From contig JAFUIQ010000027.1 in NCBI GenBank assembly GCA_017468385.1, forward strand, positions 1 through 60,439: 60,439 bases of DNA. Reading direction: 5' to 3'. Shown here one piece after another: positions 1 to 13,375 of the stretch (positions within the stretch are counted from its first letter, which is position 1; each line of letters starts with the position of its first letter). Below the pieces are notes generated by a model. The model saw only the letters and a program-made list of their open reading frames with translations, made no database searches and was not told the origin of the DNA. The DNA is from Clostridia bacterium (GTDB taxonomy: Bacteria; Bacillota; Clostridia; Oscillospirales; CAG-272). The translations under genes were made by a program, and so were the position numbers.

Positions 1-426
1 GACAAAAACCGCTCCGCCGGCAACCGGGTGACCATCGATCACGGGGACGGGGTGGTAACGAAATATTTCCACCTGGCAAACGGAAGTATTCCGGTGCAGG
101 TGGGCGATCACGTCACCGCCGGGCAGGTGATCGGACAGATGGGATCCACCGGGTATTCTACCGGGGCGCACCTGCATTTCCAACTGGAGATCTGCGGCGA
201 ACCCGTGGATCCTCTGCCGTTCCTTCTCGGGGAGGAAGGCGTCCCGGAACAGCCCGCCGACGACATGGACAACACCCCCGCCGACTGGGCGGAGGAGGCG
301 GTCCGATGGGCGGTGGGCAACGGCATTCTGTACGGGGACGAGCACGGCAACTACCGGCTCCATGAGAACTGCACCCGGGAGATGATGCTGGTGTTCCTGT
401 ACCGAGCGGTGGGAGGCGGCGCATGA
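1..426 (+). CDS. Phage endolysin, M23 metallopeptidase with C-terminal SLH-like segment (5' truncated)
   Basis: The reading frame is open from base 1, so this is the C-terminal part of a longer protein cut by the window edge. The fragment shows the end of a peptidase M23 (LytM/lysostaphin) fold: the DHGDGVVTKYFHL strand, a lipoyl-like VGDHVTAGQVIGQMG turn and the second zinc-site motif HLHF. Family members are zinc endopeptidases that cut peptidoglycan cross-bridges. After a short acidic linker, the last ~50 residues (WAEEAVRWAVGNGILYGD... TREMMLVFLYR) resemble one S-layer-homology-like repeat, a possible wall-binding tail. Its stop overlaps the ATG of the next gene in an ATGA. In this setting it is most likely the phage lysin. 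Confidence 0.8.
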   Translation, partial: DKNRSAGNRVTIDHGDGVVTKYFHLANGSIPVQVGDHVTAGQVIGQMGSTGYSTGAHLHFQLEICGEPVDPLPFLLGEEGVPEQPADDMDNTPADWAEEAVRWAVGNGILYGDEHGNYRLHENCTREMMLVFLYRAVGGGA

Positions 427-1774: not shown

Positions 1775-3232
1775 ATGAAAAAAGAGGAAGGCATTTCATG
1801 GAATCTGGACAGGCCTGCGTCCGAATGGCAGGAACTGCGAAGAAAGTATCCCGACCGCAAAGAATACATAAAGCATTATCATGCGTATAGCGACGAAGAA
1901 TACCGCCGCAACATCGAATTTGTCCATTCTCTTGGACTGAAATGCGATTGCGTCGGTTGGAGTTATCTGGATCTTGCCCGACCGGATGTGGGGGAGATTT
2001 TGGATAAGATTGAGGCCTTTTGCCGTAAGGAGGGCTGGCTGGCTCGCGGCGGCTACGGATGCCGATACACGGATATGGAAAGCGATTGGTATGAAATAGA
2101 CGCTCCGTATATAAATGAGGTGGAAGGCTCCCGAGACCAATTCCTTTACAACATCCGCGCATACAAGAACAAAAATCAACCGTTCTTTTTGGGATGGTGT
2201 GATAGAATTCCTGCCGTTGTTTCCGAAAAATTCCGCGAGGTCTGTCTGCGCCATAACATCCCCGATATCCGTTTTTGCTGGGTGAAGGATGTGGGACGGT
2301 ACGATTCGATCCAGTATGCATTTATGTTCCCCGCCAACCGCGTGACCCGAATCGCCTGTGACCGGTATTTGCAATATTCTGACGATGAATCCCACAAGGG
2401 TGGTGAATTGGATCGGCCGCACGGACCGGGATCGGAGTTGTACGGGCAATTGGAGCTGTTGGGCGGATGGCTGCCGCGGCTTGCGGAGATATTCTATAAT
2501 TTTCAGTTCAACCTGCCGGACTATTACCGCGTGGAAGATTTGCCGGAAACGGGATTTGCCTTTGTCAAGGGCGGGCGTGGTTATTGTGTGCGCCAGAAAC
2601 TGCTTGTCCATAAAAACACCGCCGAGATTCTCGTGCGGGAAAAGGTGTTGGATCCGAAGTTTCTGCAGCCGGCACTTTTGTACAGCGGGGATGTTCCGCC
2701 GGGTTACAGCGAGCAGACGATGACCGAGGAAGATGAGAGAACGGCATTCGATCCGGCGCATGCGGCGGAGATGGAATTGGAGTACCAGAAAATCAAACAA
2801 CTGGTGCGCCCCAAACGGAAAGCTACTGAAAAGCAGACAGTGAGCGCCTTGCGTGCCGCTAAGCGGGATCGCAAAGAAGATTTCGGCAAAAAGATGCGTA
2901 AAGAAATCGCGGAATCGCTGACGGATACACCGTACGCTCCGCTGATCCCCTATTATCTGGTTGCTGATGGGGGAAGTTTGTGCGATGAGTACGAGTTTTT
3001 GCCCCATAAAGAGGCACTGGAGATGAGCCGGGAATACGAAGAGGACATGGCCAGGGAAGAATTGACGGATACGCCCATCGGTATCGTTTTCTGTAAGTGT
3101 GCAGACGGCGATAAAGTCATCCTGACGCCCCTTGGAACGGTTGTGCGTATGAGTCATGAGGTGCCCGAGGCCATCGAGAAGTGGCCCACCCCGGCTCAGT
3201 TTATTACCGATGCCCTGGAAATGGAAGAATAA
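1775..3232 (+). CDS. Hypothetical protein, 485 aa
   Basis: A long soluble-looking protein with no signal peptide or membrane span. It starts at ATG 1775 after an AAGGAG site. I do not recognise a family. Visible properties are many aromatic residues in the first 270 residues, a basic stretch near 345-375 (VRPKRKATEKQ..RAAKRDRKEDFGKKMRKE) and a C-terminal part with an acidic helix and a beta-rich end (GIVFCKCADGDKVILTPLGTVV). The last 50 residues loosely recall SUKH/SMI1-type immunity or cell-wall-assembly proteins, but this is weak. It lies immediately outside the att-like repeats and is followed 30 bases later by a YdcF gene, so the two may be co-transcribed. Confidence 0.75.
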   Translation: MKKEEGISWNLDRPASEWQELRRKYPDRKEYIKHYHAYSDEEYRRNIEFVHSLGLKCDCVGWSYLDLARPDVGEILDKIEAFCRKEGWLARGGYGCRYTDMESDWYEIDAPYINEVEGSRDQFLYNIRAYKNKNQPFFLGWCDRIPAVVSEKFREVCLRHNIPDIRFCWVKDVGRYDSIQYAFMFPANRVTRIACDRYLQYSDDESHKGGELDRPHGPGSELYGQLELLGGWLPRLAEIFYNFQFNLPDYYRVEDLPETGFAFVKGGRGYCVRQKLLVHKNTAEILVREKVLDPKFLQPALLYSGDVPPGYSEQTMTEEDERTAFDPAHAAEMELEYQKIKQLVRPKRKATEKQTVSALRAAKRDRKEDFGKKMRKEIAESLTDTPYAPLIPYYLVADGGSLCDEYEFLPHKEALEMSREYEEDMAREELTDTPIGIVFCKCADGDKVILTPLGTVVRMSHEVPEAIEKWPTPAQFITDALEMEE

Positions 3233-3262
3233 AGGGATGCTGTCACAAAATCGGAGGTGCCT

Positions 3263-4039
3263 ATGATAAAACGAAAACGATATCCGCTGCTCCGATCCGT
3301 TTTCGGGATTCTGTTCGGCCTTGTGCTGATCGCTTATTATCTGGCCGCCGGATGTATTGGCGGATTTACCGTGTCCGTGTTGTGGGTGTGGCTGGCGGCC
3401 GGGATGACCATCACGCTCCTCGGCCTCGCGGATCTGTGGATGTGGTTTCACCCCATCCGCCCCATACGGATTGCTGTGGCCGTCCTGCGGTGGCTCATCA
3501 TTGCGTGTGCCGTCGCCTTTTTCTCCGTCGTAGGAGCCGTTCTGTCCGCCATGCATGACACATGCCCCGTGCATGCGGATTATCTCATCGTGCCGGGGGC
3601 GAAAGTGTATGGGGATCAGCCCAGCGACGCGCTCCGCGCCCGCATCGATCTGGCGTGGGATTATCTGTCCCGCAATCCGGATACGGTGGCCATTCTCAGC
3701 GGCGGACAGGGAAGCGGAGAGAATATCAGCGAGGCGGAATGTATGCGCCGCACACTGGCGTCCTATGGCCTCACAGAGGATCGGATGCTCCTGGAGGAGC
3801 AATCTACCACCACCGCGGAAAATATGCAGTTTTCCTATGCATTGTACGGGGATCCCGATGCATCGGTGGGAATCGTCAGCAGCAATTTTCATCTGTACCG
3901 ATCCATCCGCCTGGCGAAGAAATGCGGCTGGACCCGGGTGTACGGAATCCCGGCCCCCTTTCGGGGAATTATGCTCCCTCATTATATCGCACGGGAATTT
4001 CTCACCATCACCGTGGACACCCTGCGGGGAAATATGTAA
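3263..4039 (+). CDS. YdcF/ElyC/SanA-family (DUF218) membrane protein
   Basis: 258 aa starting at ATG 3263, five bases after GGAGG; an in-frame GTG at 3257 would overlap that site and is rejected. The N-terminal ~95 residues hold three hydrophobic spans. The rest is a DUF218 domain: DYLIVPGAKVYGDQPSDALRARID opens it, SGGQGSGENISEAECMRR carries the conserved glycine-rich and acidic motif, and VSSNFHLYRSIRLAKK is the typical NxxHxxR-like segment. Family members are envelope proteins of poorly known biochemistry; ElyC acts in peptidoglycan or lipid-carrier metabolism in E. coli. Convergent with the O-acylation operon and separated from it by a bidirectional terminator. Confidence 0.85.
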   Translation: MIKRKRYPLLRSVFGILFGLVLIAYYLAAGCIGGFTVSVLWVWLAAGMTITLLGLADLWMWFHPIRPIRIAVAVLRWLIIACAVAFFSVVGAVLSAMHDTCPVHADYLIVPGAKVYGDQPSDALRARIDLAWDYLSRNPDTVAILSGGQGSGENISEAECMRRTLASYGLTEDRMLLEEQSTTTAENMQFSYALYGDPDASVGIVSSNFHLYRSIRLAKKCGWTRVYGIPAPFRGIMLPHYIAREFLTITVDTLRGNM

Positions 4040-4076: not shown

Positions 4077-5180
4077 TCACTTCAGCATGTTGGACTGGTT
4101 CAGCACCATGGCGCTGTACAAAAACAGTACATCGTCCGCGGTGCTCAGATCCACCAGATTGGGCAGGTACGTGCTGTCTACATAGCGGATGTCTACCAGC
4201 GTGATCTTGGAGTAAGCCGGTACCAGCAAGGGTACGATGCTGCTTCCGAAGGAATCACGGAACACCACCAGCTCTCGTCCGTCCGTGCAGGCAGGATTCT
4301 CAATGGTGAGAAGGGCCGCCGCACCGGACAGGAACACCTCGTAGGGATCATCGCCGGTCAGCTGTTCCATATCGTAGATACCGGTGGTCTTTCCCGTTTC
4401 GTAGTTATATACCGTGCATCCGTCCAGAATCGGGTTGGTCAGATACGTCAGGGTGTCGGGCGCCATGGGCAGTGCCGCCTGGCCGTAATATACGCCGTAG
4501 AACGGGGCTTCCACCTTGTTCTCCACGTAATCCCATGTGAGGCGGTCGGCGATGTTCATGCCGCCTGCCAGCACATCCACTACACCGGACAGACATTCCT
4601 GCTTCCAGTGGGTATCGGTGCGGTAGTACTGATCGATGGTCAGAGCATCAAACAGATCGATGTGCTTGAAATCCGGCGTGCTTTCCCGGAACAGACGGAG
4701 CAACTCATCGTAATCGATGGAGGGATATCCGTTTTGTGCTGCCAGGAAATAGTTCTTGTCCGGGATTACGGCCGCAAATACATTCGCGCCCGTATCCTTG
4801 AAATGGGTGTTGTACAGCGTTTCGAACTTCTGACCCGCTGACGTAATCAATTCGGGACGAAGGGGATATTCCAACTTGGAAACGGAGTCACCGGCCAGAT
4901 ACACATCGTTGTTATCTTTTTGACCGAATACATAGTAGTGAGCGATGGCCTTCACCGTGCGGAACGCATCCCGGAAAGGGAACTGATCCAGCGTATAGGT
5001 TTCAAACTCGCTCATGAACTTGGTGTTCAGAACAGTTTCGGTGGTGATTTTGGGGAACTGCTTCAGCTTTCTTCTTTCACTGGTGGAGTATTCCTGAGGA
5101 GAATGAAGCAGGCATAGGAGCGCGCCGCCAAGGAAAAATACAAGAAAACAAACGGTTACAACATAATTCTTAATTTTCAT
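4077..5180 (-). CDS. DHHW/AlgJ-like protein, partner of MBOAT O-acyltransferase
   Basis: 367 aa with one N-terminal membrane anchor (about residues 8-25) and an extracytoplasmic domain. Start ATG 5180 is preceded by AGGAGGT; longer upstream extension would run into the MBOAT gene. It carries RTDTHW (residues 187-192), the equivalent of the DHHW signature, DKNYF near 141-145 and a RDSFGSS motif (D309, S310) typical of the SGNH-like AlgJ/AlgX fold. In alginate and related systems this protein takes acetyl from the MBOAT partner and places it on an exported polymer. The gene is 11 bases downstream of the MBOAT gene and is last in a five-gene operon. The polymer substrate is unknown. Confidence 0.88.
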   Translation of the reverse strand: MKIKNYVVTVCFLVFFLGGALLCLLHSPQEYSTSERRKLKQFPKITTETVLNTKFMSEFETYTLDQFPFRDAFRTVKAIAHYYVFGQKDNNDVYLAGDSVSKLEYPLRPELITSAGQKFETLYNTHFKDTGANVFAAVIPDKNYFLAAQNGYPSIDYDELLRLFRESTPDFKHIDLFDALTIDQYYRTDTHWKQECLSGVVDVLAGGMNIADRLTWDYVENKVEAPFYGVYYGQAALPMAPDTLTYLTNPILDGCTVYNYETGKTTGIYDMEQLTGDDPYEVFLSGAAALLTIENPACTDGRELVVFRDSFGSSIVPLLVPAYSKITLVDIRYVDSTYLPNLVDLSTADDVLFLYSAMVLNQSNMLK

Positions 5181-5191
5181 ACGGCACCTCC

Positions 5192-6580
5192 TCAGAAACG
5201 GAAATACAGGAACGGATTGAAGGATCCGTCCACCAGATAGGCAGTGCACAGCACGAGAAGCACCAGCATTACCGGGGCAATGACCACATTGGTGATCTTC
5301 GGGGTGATCTTGGATACAGCCGTTTTCACAACGGGAGTCGAGCCGATGATGGCCGCGATCAGCAGCACCGCATAGCTGCGCAGGTAGTACAGCGTCTCCG
5401 TGGTGACGAGGGGAATACCGCCCGCACCGAACAAGCCGCCTACATCTCCGGCAATGCCGCCCAGACCGTTTGCGTTGAAGATCACGAAGCTGATGATCAT
5501 GATAAACAGCAGATACACACGGGACAGAACGCGGGGGAGCTTTTTCAGTATCTTTCCGATCCACAGCTTTTCGATGATCAAAAAGAAAGCGAAATACAAC
5601 CCCCAAAGTACAAAGTTCCAGTCCGCACCGTGCCACAATCCGGTCAGCATCCATACCACGAACAGATTGAACAGCCAGCGGGGCGTGGAAACCCGGTTGC
5701 CGCCCATGGGAATATACACATAATCCCGGAACCAGGAGCCCAGGGACATATGCCAGCGGCGCCAGAATTCCGTTACACTGGTAGAAATAAAGGGATAGTT
5801 GAAGTTCTCAATAAATCTGAATCCGAAAATCCGTCCAAGACCGATGGCCATATCGCTGTAGCCGGAGAAGTCGAAATAGATGTGCAGACAGAACGCGATG
5901 GCATAGATCCAGAAGAACAAAACGGATTTCTCATTCGATTCACGGAAGATGTCGCACAATTCACCCAGAGGGTTGGCGATCAGGATCTTTTTGGCCAGAC
6001 CTACCGTGAACCGGAATGCGCCGGAAGAGAACAACTCCGCCGTGTGGGAACGCTGCTTCAGCTCCGCCGCCACATCGGTGTACCGAACGATCGGACCGGC
6101 GATCAGCTGGGGGAAGAGCGCCACATAGGTGGCCAGATCGATATAATTCCGCTGTGCTTCCGTGTCACCGCGATATACATCGATGACATAACTGATGCTC
6201 TGGAACGTGTAAAAACTGATACCGATGGGCAGAGCAATTCTCAGAAGCGGGATAGAGATGCCAAAAATACCGTTCAAGTTGGCGATCATAAAGTCCGCAT
6301 ACTTGAAGAATCCGAGCAAAAGAAGTCCCGCGCCAACACCAATCCACAAAAAAACACGCGCATACCGCGTGCCGCGGAAACGCTCAATGAGCAGTCCCGC
6401 GGCATAGCTTATGGTTATGGACGTCAGCATCAACAGTGTGTATTTGGGTTCACCCCAGAAGTAGAAGAACAGACTGAAGAAAAGCAGAACGGCGTTTTTA
6501 AATTTTCCGGGAGCGATATAGTACACCAGAAGTACTGCCGGAAGGAAATAGAACAAAAACGGAATACTTGAGAAGAGCAT
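5192..6580 (-). CDS. MBOAT-family O-acyltransferase (AlgI/DltB-like)
   Basis: 462 aa, polytopic, about ten hydrophobic spans. MBOAT signatures are clear: FPQLIAGPIVRY (156-167), FDFSGYSDMAIGLGRIFGF (237-254), FWRRWHMSLGSWFRDYVYIPMGGNR (272-296) and LTGLWHGADWNFVLWG with the catalytic His at 317. The family moves acyl groups, usually acetyl, from the cytoplasmic side across the membrane for O-acylation of exported polysaccharides or teichoic acids. With the DHHW protein directly downstream it forms an AlgI/AlgJ-type pair. It starts 25 bases after the lipoprotein gene ends. DltB is less likely because no dltA, dltC or dltD is adjacent. Confidence 0.92.
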   Translation of the reverse strand: MLFSSIPFLFYFLPAVLLVYYIAPGKFKNAVLLFFSLFFYFWGEPKYTLLMLTSITISYAAGLLIERFRGTRYARVFLWIGVGAGLLLLGFFKYADFMIANLNGIFGISIPLLRIALPIGISFYTFQSISYVIDVYRGDTEAQRNYIDLATYVALFPQLIAGPIVRYTDVAAELKQRSHTAELFSSGAFRFTVGLAKKILIANPLGELCDIFRESNEKSVLFFWIYAIAFCLHIYFDFSGYSDMAIGLGRIFGFRFIENFNYPFISTSVTEFWRRWHMSLGSWFRDYVYIPMGGNRVSTPRWLFNLFVVWMLTGLWHGADWNFVLWGLYFAFFLIIEKLWIGKILKKLPRVLSRVYLLFIMIISFVIFNANGLGGIAGDVGGLFGAGGIPLVTTETLYYLRSYAVLLIAAIIGSTPVVKTAVSKITPKITNVVIAPVMLVLLVLCTAYLVDGSFNPFLYFRF

Positions 6581-6605
6581 ATCAGCCTCCCGATGGAATC
6601 AGAAA

Positions 6606-7127
6606 TTATTTCTCCAGCTTCTCGCCGGGGTTGCCAACGATGGAAACAAATGCGTCGTACAGAGCGTTGGTCATCTCGGAGCCGCCAAAGTCGTTGCCAA
6701 CCATGACCATGATAACCAGATCGCGTGCATCGCCAACGATCATGTGATCGGCAGCAACACACATCCACTTACGCATGTCCATGTTGTCGAAGATTTCCTG
6801 CTTAACAGCAGCCATGTCCGCGCCTTCCTTAACGCGTGCGATGCAGAGAGAGTAGGGCTGAGAGCCGAACATAGTCTCTGCCCATACTGCTTCCGTCAGA
6901 TTGTCGCCATTGGCCAGACCAAAGTAGTAGTTCACAGCACCGGCATCAGCGATGTCAATGGGCATAGCGGGAGCAACACTGAACTCGGGCATATGAATCT
7001 CGTAGATGGAGTTAACCAACTCTTCCAGAGTGCCCTCATAAGGGGTAACCTTCTCTTCCTGCTTATTGCAGGCAACAACAGACAGCATCATGAGAGCAGC
7101 GAGTACGATTGCAAGAATTCTTTTCAT
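6606..7127 (-). CDS. Lipoprotein, DUF4358-like
   Basis: 173 aa with a lipoprotein signal: KR, a hydrophobic core and lipobox LSVVAC with Cys20. The mature part has two similar alpha/beta halves; the order (YYFGLANGD.. SLCIARVKEGADMAAVKQEIFDN..VAADHMIVGDARDLVIMVMVG) resembles DUF4358 proteins of Clostridia, which have no assigned biochemical role. It sits between the anti-sigma factor and the MBOAT gene with 24- and 25-base gaps, so it probably belongs to the same envelope-stress regulon. A role in signal sensing or in presenting the polymer is possible but unproven. Confidence 0.75.
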   Translation of the reverse strand: MKRILAIVLAALMMLSVVACNKQEEKVTPYEGTLEELVNSIYEIHMPEFSVAPAMPIDIADAGAVNYYFGLANGDNLTEAVWAETMFGSQPYSLCIARVKEGADMAAVKQEIFDNMDMRKWMCVAADHMIVGDARDLVIMVMVGNDFGGSEMTNALYDAFVSIVGNPGEKLEK

Positions 7128-7151
7128 TGTGATAATCCTCTTTTCATTTTT

Positions 7152-7772
7152 TTAATTTTCCGTGAAGGCGTACCAGACGCCTTCCTCGGTTTGATAACTA
7201 AGGGTAAGGGTTGCCAGAGTGTTTTCATGGAAATCCATGAATTGCGCCACAGGGGTAGTTTGCGATGTGCCGGGATCCACCGACCAGTATGCGGTTTGTC
7301 CTGCCTGAATAAGACCGGACTGTCCCGTATAATGCAACTTTCCGTCTTCATCGGGGAGAAGGAGTTTGCCACGGTTGATCACCACGAACACGTCACATCC
7401 GAAATCCATGTCCAGCAAAATGCAGTTTTCGGCGACTGCCATAACCTCAAACCCGTCCTCTCCGGTGAGGGAGGCACCGCGGGTCAAAGTGCCGCTGTAG
7501 GAAACGGTGTGTGTGGTCACGGGTGTGCCCGTGGGAGCGTCGGGGGAGGTAAGTCTGGGAAGCGCAAGGAGAACGCATCCCACAACAAGTACAAGGCTTG
7601 CCAGGGCAGCCGCGGGGCGCATCACTGACAGTGAGAAAATGTCCCGTTTTTTTCGTGGTGTAAGCACTTTTGCGCGAAGATGGGCGGGGGCATGGATCTT
7701 TCTGTAAGATTCTTTCGCAGAATCAAGCAGTCCGTCCAGCGCGTCATCCCTGCGCAGATGGCGATTGTTCAC
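7152..7772 (-). CDS. Putative membrane-bound anti-sigma factor
   Basis: 206 aa with a cytoplasmic N-terminal part of ~45 residues (acidic and basic helix, DALDGLLDSAKESYRKIHAP), one membrane span near 51-70 (RPAAALASLVLVVGCVLLAL) and an extracytoplasmic domain of ~130 residues. This topology and its position 12 bases after an ECF sigma gene are the usual marks of an anti-sigma factor. No zinc-binding HxxxCxxC motif is present, so it is not a ZAS-type protein, and it lacks an obvious RsiV lysozyme-binding domain. The outer domain is rich in small beta-type segments and may sense an envelope signal. Function is inferred from pairing and topology. Confidence 0.78.
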   Translation of the reverse strand: MNNRHLRRDDALDGLLDSAKESYRKIHAPAHLRAKVLTPRKKRDIFSLSVMRPAAALASLVLVVGCVLLALPRLTSPDAPTGTPVTTHTVSYSGTLTRGASLTGEDGFEVMAVAENCILLDMDFGCDVFVVINRGKLLLPDEDGKLHYTGQSGLIQAGQTAYWSVDPGTSQTTPVAQFMDFHENTLATLTLSYQTEEGVWYAFTEN

Positions 7773-7784
7773 GTTGTTCCTCCT

Positions 7785-8261
7785 TTACGTTTCTGTAAGA
7801 TAGGCCCGCATCATCTCTCTGGCCCGCGTCAATCGCATTTTCACGGCGGATTCGGAGATGGTGAGGGCAGCGGCCGTTTCACGGACGCTCATCTCTTCCA
7901 GGTGATGCAGAACAACTACTTCCCGGTACTTGTCCGGCAGAGCCGCAATCGCTTCCATAACAGGGGAAGCGGTGTCGGGTGCGGCCATCTCGGGGAGTTC
8001 TTCAAAGGGAAGCCAGGCGCGTATTTTTCGCCGCCGCAAAAGATCTTTGCATTGGTTGACAGTTACGCGGATCAGCCACGCCTTTTCGTGTTCTGTGTCC
8101 TGAAAGGAAGGAGCATGCTCCAGATACCGGCAAAATGCATTCTGTACAGCATCTTCCGCATCGTCCCCGCTTTGCAGGATCGAAACGGACACGCGGTAGA
8201 GCATATCGGCATATGTATCATAGACTTGATCCAGAGTGTGCATATGCGAATCTGTCGGCAT
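7785..8261 (-). CDS. ECF-type RNA polymerase sigma factor
   Basis: 158 aa from ATG 8261, chosen because a GAAAGGAG site lies 8 bases upstream; an in-frame ATG at 8288 has none. Sigma region 2 is seen at YADMLYRVSVSILQSGDDAEDAVQNAFCRYLEH and region 4 at LPDKYREVVVLHHLEEMSVRETAAALTISESAVKMRLTRAREMM, a typical ECF helix-turn-helix. Size and architecture fit the sigma-V/ECF30-like groups of Firmicutes. It heads the operon with anti-sigma factor, lipoprotein, MBOAT and DHHW genes, so the simplest reading is that it turns on O-acylation of an exported polymer under envelope stress and activates its own promoter. Confidence 0.92.
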   Translation of the reverse strand: MPTDSHMHTLDQVYDTYADMLYRVSVSILQSGDDAEDAVQNAFCRYLEHAPSFQDTEHEKAWLIRVTVNQCKDLLRRRKIRAWLPFEELPEMAAPDTASPVMEAIAALPDKYREVVVLHHLEEMSVRETAAALTISESAVKMRLTRAREMMRAYLTET

Positions 8262-8283
8262 CTCTACGACTCCTTTCATACAT

Positions 8284-8311
8284 AACACGCGTGGAAGGTG
8301 CGATTGGTCAC
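8284..8311 (-). promoter_or_regulatory. Candidate ECF-type autoregulatory promoter
   Basis: On the minus strand GTGACC, a 16-base spacer and CGTGTT lie just ahead of the sigma gene. Spacing and the CGT at -10 recall ECF promoters (AAC-like -35, CGT -10). The predicted transcript would start near 8277, just upstream of the Shine-Dalgarno site. A sigma-A-like TACAAT also lies near 8341-8346 on the same strand. Confidence 0.35.
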
Positions 8312-13196: not shown

Positions 13197-13204
13197 GGGT
13201 TGTA

Positions 13205-13375
13205 TGTAAGCGCAGCGCCAGACTTTCCATAGGGAAGTTGACGAGGTGAGGAGTGATCGAACATTCGGCGGATGCTCCTCCGGCAGAGCGAACTGCCGCA
13301 GACCGATGACAAATATGCGGGTGACTGCAAAACAAAGCATCGGTGAAAGCGATAGCGGATAGATCCGCTGAGGTA
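13205..13375 (+). promoter_or_regulatory. glmS ribozyme riboswitch
   Basis: The 186 bases between glmM and glmS match the glmS ribozyme: the AGCGCCAGA core at 13214-13222, GTTGACGAGGTGAGGAG (13238-13254), ATCGAAC, TTCGGCGGATGCTCCTC, the CCGCAGACC segment and GTGACTGCAAAAC, in the expected order. By homology self-cleavage occurs 5' of the G at 13215 when glucosamine-6-phosphate binds, which destabilises the glmS message and closes a feedback loop on UDP-GlcNAc synthesis. The site would also cut glmM-glmS read-through transcripts. The glmS Shine-Dalgarno GAGGT follows near 13370. Confidence 0.95.

Follow-up and report, generated by a model that had tools for sequence, protein, structure and literature searches.

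In Bacillus subtilis the autoregulated sigV-rsiV-oatA-yrhK operon brings together a sigma factor, an anti-sigma factor and an O-acetyltransferase (PMC5014341, PMC8287880). Among acyltransferases of other classes, PatB1 carries DHHW and DXRY blocks and O-acetylates a secondary cell wall polymer (PMC9487903), and in PatA it is the tyrosine of an FXYXXF hexapeptide that is auto-acetylated and feeds an SGNH partner (PMC12148441). Here we describe a locus on contig JAFUIQ010000027.1 of a Clostridia bacterium (assembly GCA_017468385.1; Oscillospirales, CAG-272), of which the whole stretch analysed, 60,439 nucleotides, is referred to as the window. Five minus-strand genes encode an extracytoplasmic function (ECF) sigma factor, a predicted anti-sigma factor, a lipoprotein, an MBOAT acyltransferase and a DHHW acyltransferase, and we put at roughly two in three (0.66) the probability that they form a self-contained, sigma-controlled envelope-acylation operon that works by the mechanism proposed below. 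Should this be right, a number of uncultured gut Clostridia would be able to alter their surface chemistry on demand by means of a self-contained switch.

The five-gene operon and its putative promoter

The features of the locus are as follows.

8312-8284, minus strand: putative autoregulated ECF promoter, TGTGACC at 8312-8306, a 16-base spacer and CGTGTT at 8289-8284
7785..8261, minus strand: ECF sigma factor gene, 158 amino acids from ATG 8261 (Pfam Sigma70_r2 6e-15, Sigma70_r4_2 5.1e-16)
7152..7772, minus strand: single-span anti-sigma factor gene, predicted from position and topology; predicted transmembrane residues 53-71, ectodomain encoded by 7152-7559
6606..7127, minus strand: lipoprotein gene, lipobox Cys20, conserved Trp121 and Cys123
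5192..6580, minus strand: MBOAT acyltransferase gene (Pfam PF03062 3.8e-26), His317, C-terminal FLYFRF
4077..5180, minus strand: DHHW/SGNH acyltransferase gene of the PatB1 family (Pfam PF14286 2.4e-17)
4070-4037, minus strand: terminator-like hairpin (RNA fold), symmetric, so that it could serve both strands

A sequence-only reading of this DNA had listed five minus-strand open reading frames (ORFs) in this order, and all five are present, with gaps of 12, 24, 25 and 11 bases; the promoter, the hairpin and the acyl-shuttle C-terminus of the MBOAT protein were absent from its list. The product of the first gene is short and contains sigma regions 2 and 4, as ECF sigma factors do. Its mechanical ORF start, GTG 8288, overlaps the -10 element, and the likely start is ATG 8261, with a ribosome binding site AAAGGAG at 8276-8270. 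The hairpin folds at -16.5 kcal/mol (z -6.88, none of 200 shuffles equally low) and is absent from the output of the consensus scans for sigma-70 promoters and terminators, which between 2500 and 11000 performed at about the level of chance, with 11 sigma-70 promoters against 7.0 expected and 10 terminators against 8.4 expected. Two of the sigma-70-like matches from the consensus scan, 6736-6709 and 6264-6237, lie within the operon on its own strand, so internal promoters may also exist there.

The locus was compared with others in 161 annotated regions, comprising the window, 80 regions picked by similarity to the lipoprotein or the anti-sigma factor, in which the presence of the lipoprotein is largely built in by selection, and 80 picked by DHHW similarity, these being the best 80 of 557 by similarity to the DHHW proteins of five sigma-bearing operons. 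An MBOAT-DHHW pair is found in 119 of the regions and is lacking from the other 42; six of the 119 are duplicates, which leaves 113 distinct loci, and 14 of these have too little upstream DNA, which leaves 99 that are readable. An ECF sigma/anti-sigma pair lies upstream in 28 of the 99, with 22 sigma factors of group 1, recognised by a profile of five operon sigma factors at E ≤ 1e-12, and six of a second group described below; upstream regulators of other kinds were inspected by eye at 15 loci. One tally of similarity matches, many of the weaker of which lie chiefly on the signal peptide, was left out of the counts. Group-1 operons occur in four families of the order as well as in four metagenome-assembled genomes (MAGs) labelled Lachnospiraceae. 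Conservation of the gene order beyond close relatives had been set beforehand as a test, and the order does recur outside the genus. When the group-1 label is placed on a FastTree phylogeny of MBOAT and DHHW, 12 changes are needed, at least nine of them forced by well supported branches, and the sigma cassette has therefore been gained or lost many times.

The pattern TGTGAC[CT]-N16-CGTNT[TA] is found at 26 of 31 group-1 sigma genes with a spacer that is invariably 16 bases. This total combines 18 of the 22 distinct group-1 sigma genes in the 161 regions, where spacers of 14-19 were allowed and each was 16, with eight of nine group-1 loci that were fetched for a different purpose after the motif had been fixed, again all N16 with 12-21 allowed, some of the nine being closely related to one another or to loci sampled before (L308/L310, L314/L315, L309; the L numbers are our own). 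Away from these sigma genes, the 161 regions contain just two matches to the pattern, both with N14, and a chance origin of the motif is rejected on the ground that N16 matches are found solely at sigma genes. At two loci the match lies 189 bases 5' of the sigma ORF, far beyond the distance seen at the others, and a structured leader is possible there.

The assembly that contains the window (2,225,653 bases, 62 contigs, 93.6% complete) holds a single exact occurrence of the pattern, at the operon itself. Sites with one mismatch number seven, and those with up to two mismatches number 127 against 170 in a reversed control. The simplest reading is that the only clear target of the sigma factor is its own operon, and regulation of the operon by its own sigma factor, through a putative autoregulated promoter, is well supported at the level of sequence. 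In the sigma tree a branch with support of 90/92 parts the 22 operon sigma factors from six other ECF sigma factors of this genome. The sigma factors of two other loci (L047, L230) fall among the operon sigma factors, and a grouping of the operon sigma factors without them has a p-AU of 0.231.

The lipoprotein-MBOAT-DHHW core

The lipoprotein, MBOAT and DHHW genes form a broad core. They occur together in 76 of the 80 loci picked by DHHW similarity (the best 80 of 557), and of the other four, two are truncated by a contig edge, which removes the lipoprotein, and two have no detected MBOAT; the lipoprotein is found in all 99 readable MBOAT-DHHW loci. Cultured bacteria that carry the triad free of the sigma pair include Oscillibacter sp. 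MSJ-31, O. valericigenes An907 and Acidaminobacter hydrogenoformans DSM 2784; no isolate with the sigma pair was found, all named loci that have one coming from MAGs. The genome itself has two further MBOAT-DHHW pairs, on other contigs (C16, C21), and profiles of the sigma factor, the anti-sigma ectodomain and the lipoprotein found nothing at E ≤ 0.01 in the 15-16 kb around them; of the three pairs, then, only that of the window operon was found to have a sigma factor of its own.

The residues expected for acyl transfer are in place in both enzymes, and the sequence-only reading had picked out several of them correctly. His317 of the MBOAT protein is invariant in seven aligned MBOATs, and in five aligned DHHW proteins RTDTHW (Asp189/His191/Trp192) and RDSFGSS (Ser310) are invariant save for the first R of RTDTHW, which varies. 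The MBOAT protein ends in FLYFRF (residues 457-462, with Tyr459), which fits the FXYXXF pattern that also ends the MBOAT in 110 of the 113 distinct loci, and the MBOAT domain, conserved His and C-terminal FXYXXF together place it in the MBOAT-SGNH class. It was also considered as DltB and this was rejected, as it scores 154.2 bits against NCBIfam LTA_dltB where the cutoff is 375. The DHHW protein belongs with PatB1: PF14286 is matched at 63.7 bits against a cutoff of 25, the Ser, DxHW and DxR(Y) motifs are present, and in a profile comparison with PatB1 (PDB 5v8d, 3.2e-20) Ser310, Asp189-x-His191-Trp192 and Asp330-x-Arg332-Tyr333 are aligned, the match to ALGX being weak and below cutoff (6.1e-4). 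All three DHHW motifs are present in 108 of the 113 distinct loci. Acyl transfer by the MBOAT-DHHW pair, as earlier proposed, is thus supported by motif.

The third member of the core is harder to place. In aligned members the lipobox Cys and Cys123 are invariant and Trp121 is nearly so. There is no Pfam match, and NCBIfam gives only two below-cutoff matches, both in the signal-peptide region. The label "DUF4358-like" given to the protein earlier holds up only weakly: the window protein does not reach the PF14270 gathering score or otherwise match that family, to which 11 of 45 aligned members have matches at E ≤ 0.01 (best 3.5e-6). Plain membership of DUF4358 was rejected for want of a match, and the hhalign probabilities against the two DUF4358 proteins that this genome encodes are not significant, at 11-12%, a weak test given that one side consists of only two sequences; the lipoprotein would be at best a distant DUF4358 relative. 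A profile search of the PDB returned only two weak matches, to a viral fusion protein, which are taken as chance.

The lipoprotein gene is codon-adapted, apparently for high expression. At 0.637, its codon adaptation measured against fusA/tuf ranks first among window ORFs of at least 150 amino acids, and also first among the 19 lipobox-like ORFs that turned up in the scanned stretches of this genome; the other operon genes have 0.324 (sigma), 0.334 (anti-sigma), 0.406 (MBOAT) and 0.482 (DHHW), and fusA and tuf, which are the reference set themselves, have 0.688 and 0.800. The value for the lipoprotein exceeds those of both enzymes in 103 of 111 loci, a crude measure outside the genus where the fusA/tuf weights of this genome are still used. 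Ten of the 161 regions encode a fusion protein that joins the lipoprotein domain to a DHHW domain, and in six other regions the lipoprotein domain occurs in SLH-transglutaminase-like proteins, the latter suggesting that it may be a general wall-associated accessory domain. The codon bias, the DHHW fusions and the SLH-transglutaminase-like proteins together make the lipoprotein look more like an abundant partner of exported enzymes that faces the wall than like a primary sensor.

Other arrangements of the domain were also seen. The lipoprotein is at times duplicated, as tandem genes or as two or three repeats per protein, at eight loci in all, and in one of these (L223) an additional copy, at 3174-3827, lies 5' of the sigma gene. 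At two loci (L192, L193) and in some fusions (for example L049, L057) a DHHW protein and the lipoprotein domain occur with no MBOAT detected in the fetched stretch; the MBOAT may lie outside that stretch, or these proteins may be esterases.

The polymer acted upon might be an exported polysaccharide, such as a capsule or a cellulose-like polymer, rather than one bound to the wall, for the genes of clostridial cellulose synthase are accompanied by those of CcsH/CcsI, an MBOAT/DHHW pair (PMC7710045). Against this, no polysaccharide synthase is among the named operon neighbours in the part of the window that was annotated, and Pfam finds SLH domains in four of the five lipoprotein-DHHW fusions that were scanned, so that we regard an exported target as rather unlikely. 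As there are 22 SLH matches in the genome, SLH-type anchoring is probably in use in this organism. The neighbours to which a name could be put are a DUF218 protein, ArsR, a P-type ATPase and glmM/glmS, the P-type ATPase, glmM and glmS having been named by eye and glmS also by its ribozyme. This glmS ribozyme (13203-13355, plus strand; Rfam RF00234, 89.7 bits) is an ordinary one directly 5' of the glmS-like ORF, and at the window edge there is a fragment of an M23 peptidase with an SLH domain (28-426, plus strand).

The anti-sigma ectodomain and a second sigma group

In 21 of the 22 group-1 loci the interval between sigma and lipoprotein genes was computed to hold one ORF with one predicted transmembrane span, the remaining locus (L043) having been read by hand. 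An N-terminal YxxIxAPxxL-like segment and the span are common to the operon relatives. The window anti-sigma factor has no Pfam match at E ≤ 0.1, and neither DUF4163 nor DUF3298 is found in any of five anti-sigma members at E ≤ 1.

This bears on whether the operon is a lysozyme defence in the manner of sigma-V, in which lysozyme would bind the anti-sigma factor and the operon would O-acetylate peptidoglycan. The logic is that of the autoregulated B. subtilis operon (PMC5014341, PMC8287880), and two operon-bearing congeners match MAGs from sheep and roe deer colon. However, DUF4163 and DUF3298 are the RsiV domains named in PMC5014341, and in their absence an RsiV-type lysozyme receptor was rejected; furthermore the effector is a DHHW protein, of a family whose characterised member has a secondary cell wall polymer as its substrate (PMC9487903), and not OatA or PatB. 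A lysozyme defence of this kind is accordingly held to be very unlikely.

A second group of ECF sigma factors occupies the same position at eight loci. The accompanying anti-sigma factors have a distinct N-terminus, IDDxLI-like in most, and the ectodomain is common to both groups: the group-1 (22 sequences) and group-2 (five sequences) ectodomains align with an hhalign probability of 98.6% (E 6.2e-16, 122 columns), whereas the cytoplasmic N-termini give 1.3%, with five column-shuffled controls at 0.0-0.4%. By these profile comparisons the ectodomains of the two groups are homologous and the N-termini not detectably similar. A group-2 site, TGCAACC-N13-GTTGTC, is found in five of the eight loci with an N11 variant in a sixth, a pattern drawn from those six loci after viewing them and absent from the two unused loci, L138 and L145.

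A profile of the ectodomain, built on 25 sequences all from such operons, was run on 394 genomes of the order and at E ≤ 0.001 matches 21 places, in 20 of the genomes. All 21 lie directly 5' of a lipoprotein gene and 18 have all five genes; of the remaining three, L145 has no MBOAT, in L138 only the sigma factor, anti-sigma factor and lipoprotein are detected, and L308 (91% identical to L310 over 138 residues) is at a contig edge, the contig ending within the lipoprotein gene. In loci that lack an ECF pair the profile finds the ectodomain in none of 85. A domain found only in this kind of operon is taken as the candidate sensor, tied to the acylation module whichever sigma factor reads it. The sequence-only reading had offered the lipoprotein as a possible sensor, and this is now less likely given its occurrence without either sigma group in 71 of the 99 readable loci and the lack of the ectodomain from the 85 ECF-free loci.

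It is still possible to give the lipoprotein a part in signalling, as a ligand of the anti-sigma ectodomain, in which case it would track the polymer or the polymer's acylation, and its free form would either trigger or silence the anti-sigma factor. Such feedback stays in consideration because the gene after that of the ectodomain encodes the lipoprotein at all 21 places, even in L138, where MBOAT and DHHW are undetected, and in L145, and the high-expression codon bias would fit a titrant. Yet at those same 71 loci the lipoprotein is found with neither ECF group, its domain is fused to DHHW or occurs in SLH-transglutaminase-like proteins in regions where no ectodomain was found, and the two proteins have no profile similarity, a relationship between them having been tried and rejected at hhalign probabilities of 0.0 and 0.1%. 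On this evidence we think a ligand role unlikely. A broader proposal, which we offer tentatively and hold to be doubtful, is that the ectodomain serves as a receptor dedicated either to the lipoprotein or to the state of the polymer that the operon modifies, and that this one receptor has been moved onto two sigma-binding modules with two promoters. Were this true the circuit would close on itself as a homeostatic loop, with the very abundant lipoprotein acting at once as an acyltransferase subunit and as the signal.

A proposed circuit and its relation to known systems

The reading that we favour remains that of an envelope-acylation operon that is self-contained and under the control of its sigma factor. 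In the resting state the ECF sigma factor would be kept at the membrane by the single-span anti-sigma factor; we infer that an extracellular signal read by the ectodomain would free the sigma factor, which would then transcribe its own promoter and so give more sigma factor, anti-sigma factor, abundant lipoprotein, MBOAT and DHHW. MBOAT would move an acyl group, most likely acetyl, from acyl-CoA through His317 to Tyr459 of the FLYFRF tail, and the tail would pass it to Ser310 of DHHW, which would put it on an envelope polymer. The lipoprotein may be a stoichiometric outer-face partner of the DHHW step that binds the polymer or the wall. The sequence-only reading had likewise proposed a self-contained regulated acylation unit, and in this it is strengthened by the single exact promoter match, the terminator-like hairpin and the motifs; its association with lysozyme is not carried over, because the anti-sigma factor is not RsiV-like.

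A number of observations weigh against this reading. Since the enzyme triad occurs without either sigma group in 71 of the 99 readable loci, sigma control would seem to be optional for its function. A protein search of four congeners found the anti-sigma factor in two and not in G001 (83% complete) or G004; matches to it in G053 (E 0.001) and G110 (E 0.007), where there are none of the other operon genes, were dropped. One well supported subgroup of the sigma tree (L048, L104, L144) lacks both the strict promoter and the ectodomain, these being the three divergent group-1 loci that the ectodomain profile missed. In L313-L315 the promoter site falls inside an over-long ORF call. A mononucleotide-shuffled set still gives three matches in 2.27 Mb (one strand, spacer 15-18); single promoter matches are weak evidence, and the weight is placed on position and spacer. 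Finally, the one-target regulon depends on the exact motif in a 93.6% complete assembly, and sites with one mismatch may be further targets.

With a single clear target promoter for the sigma factor and the effector encoded in the same operon, the system would be a small, testable circuit, and the presence of the same candidate receptor domain on two sigma systems offers a route to finding the signal. The abundant lipoprotein, in turn, points to what may be a missing part of clostridial MBOAT-DHHW acylation.

It had been claimed from the sequence that no system with this gene order has been described, and we likewise found no description of the operon in the titles and abstract openings of open-licence PMC papers, subscription papers and supplements being outside that scope. 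Several described systems resemble parts of it. As in PatA1/PatB1 of Bacillus cereus there is an MBOAT and DHHW pair, with the PatB1 motifs aligned; unlike it, the window pair comes with a lipoprotein and a sigma/anti-sigma pair, whilst PatB1 acts on a secondary cell wall polymer. The C-terminal FXYXXF acyl-shuttle and the conserved MBOAT His are shared with the PatA/PatB peptidoglycan O-acetylation pair as described in PMC12148441, but here the SGNH partner is DHHW and not DUF459/PatB, and the setting, judged by the taxonomy of relatives, is Gram-positive. CcsH/CcsI of clostridial cellulose operons are likewise MBOAT and DHHW proteins in Clostridia (PMC7710045), although in the window the pair has a lipoprotein and ECF control and no cellulose synthase among its named neighbours. 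Alginate O-acetylation by AlgI/AlgJ/AlgX/AlgF similarly combines MBOAT, SGNH proteins and an accessory part (PMC9487903); the accessory lipoprotein here has no Pfam match.

The nearest described logic is that of sigV-rsiV-oatA-yrhK, in which, as in the window, an ECF sigma factor, a single-span anti-sigma factor and an envelope acyltransferase share one autoregulated operon, putatively so in the present case. The effector differs, being MBOAT and DHHW with a lipoprotein and not OatA (AT3-SGNH), as does the anti-sigma factor, which is without DUF4163 or DUF3298; and whilst sigma-V is reported also to drive dlt genes (PMC5014341), one exact target promoter was found for the window sigma factor in its genome. 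The operon is thus real and conserved, and follows a known, sigV-like logic with other parts: no RsiV domains, another class of acyltransferase and an added lipoprotein.

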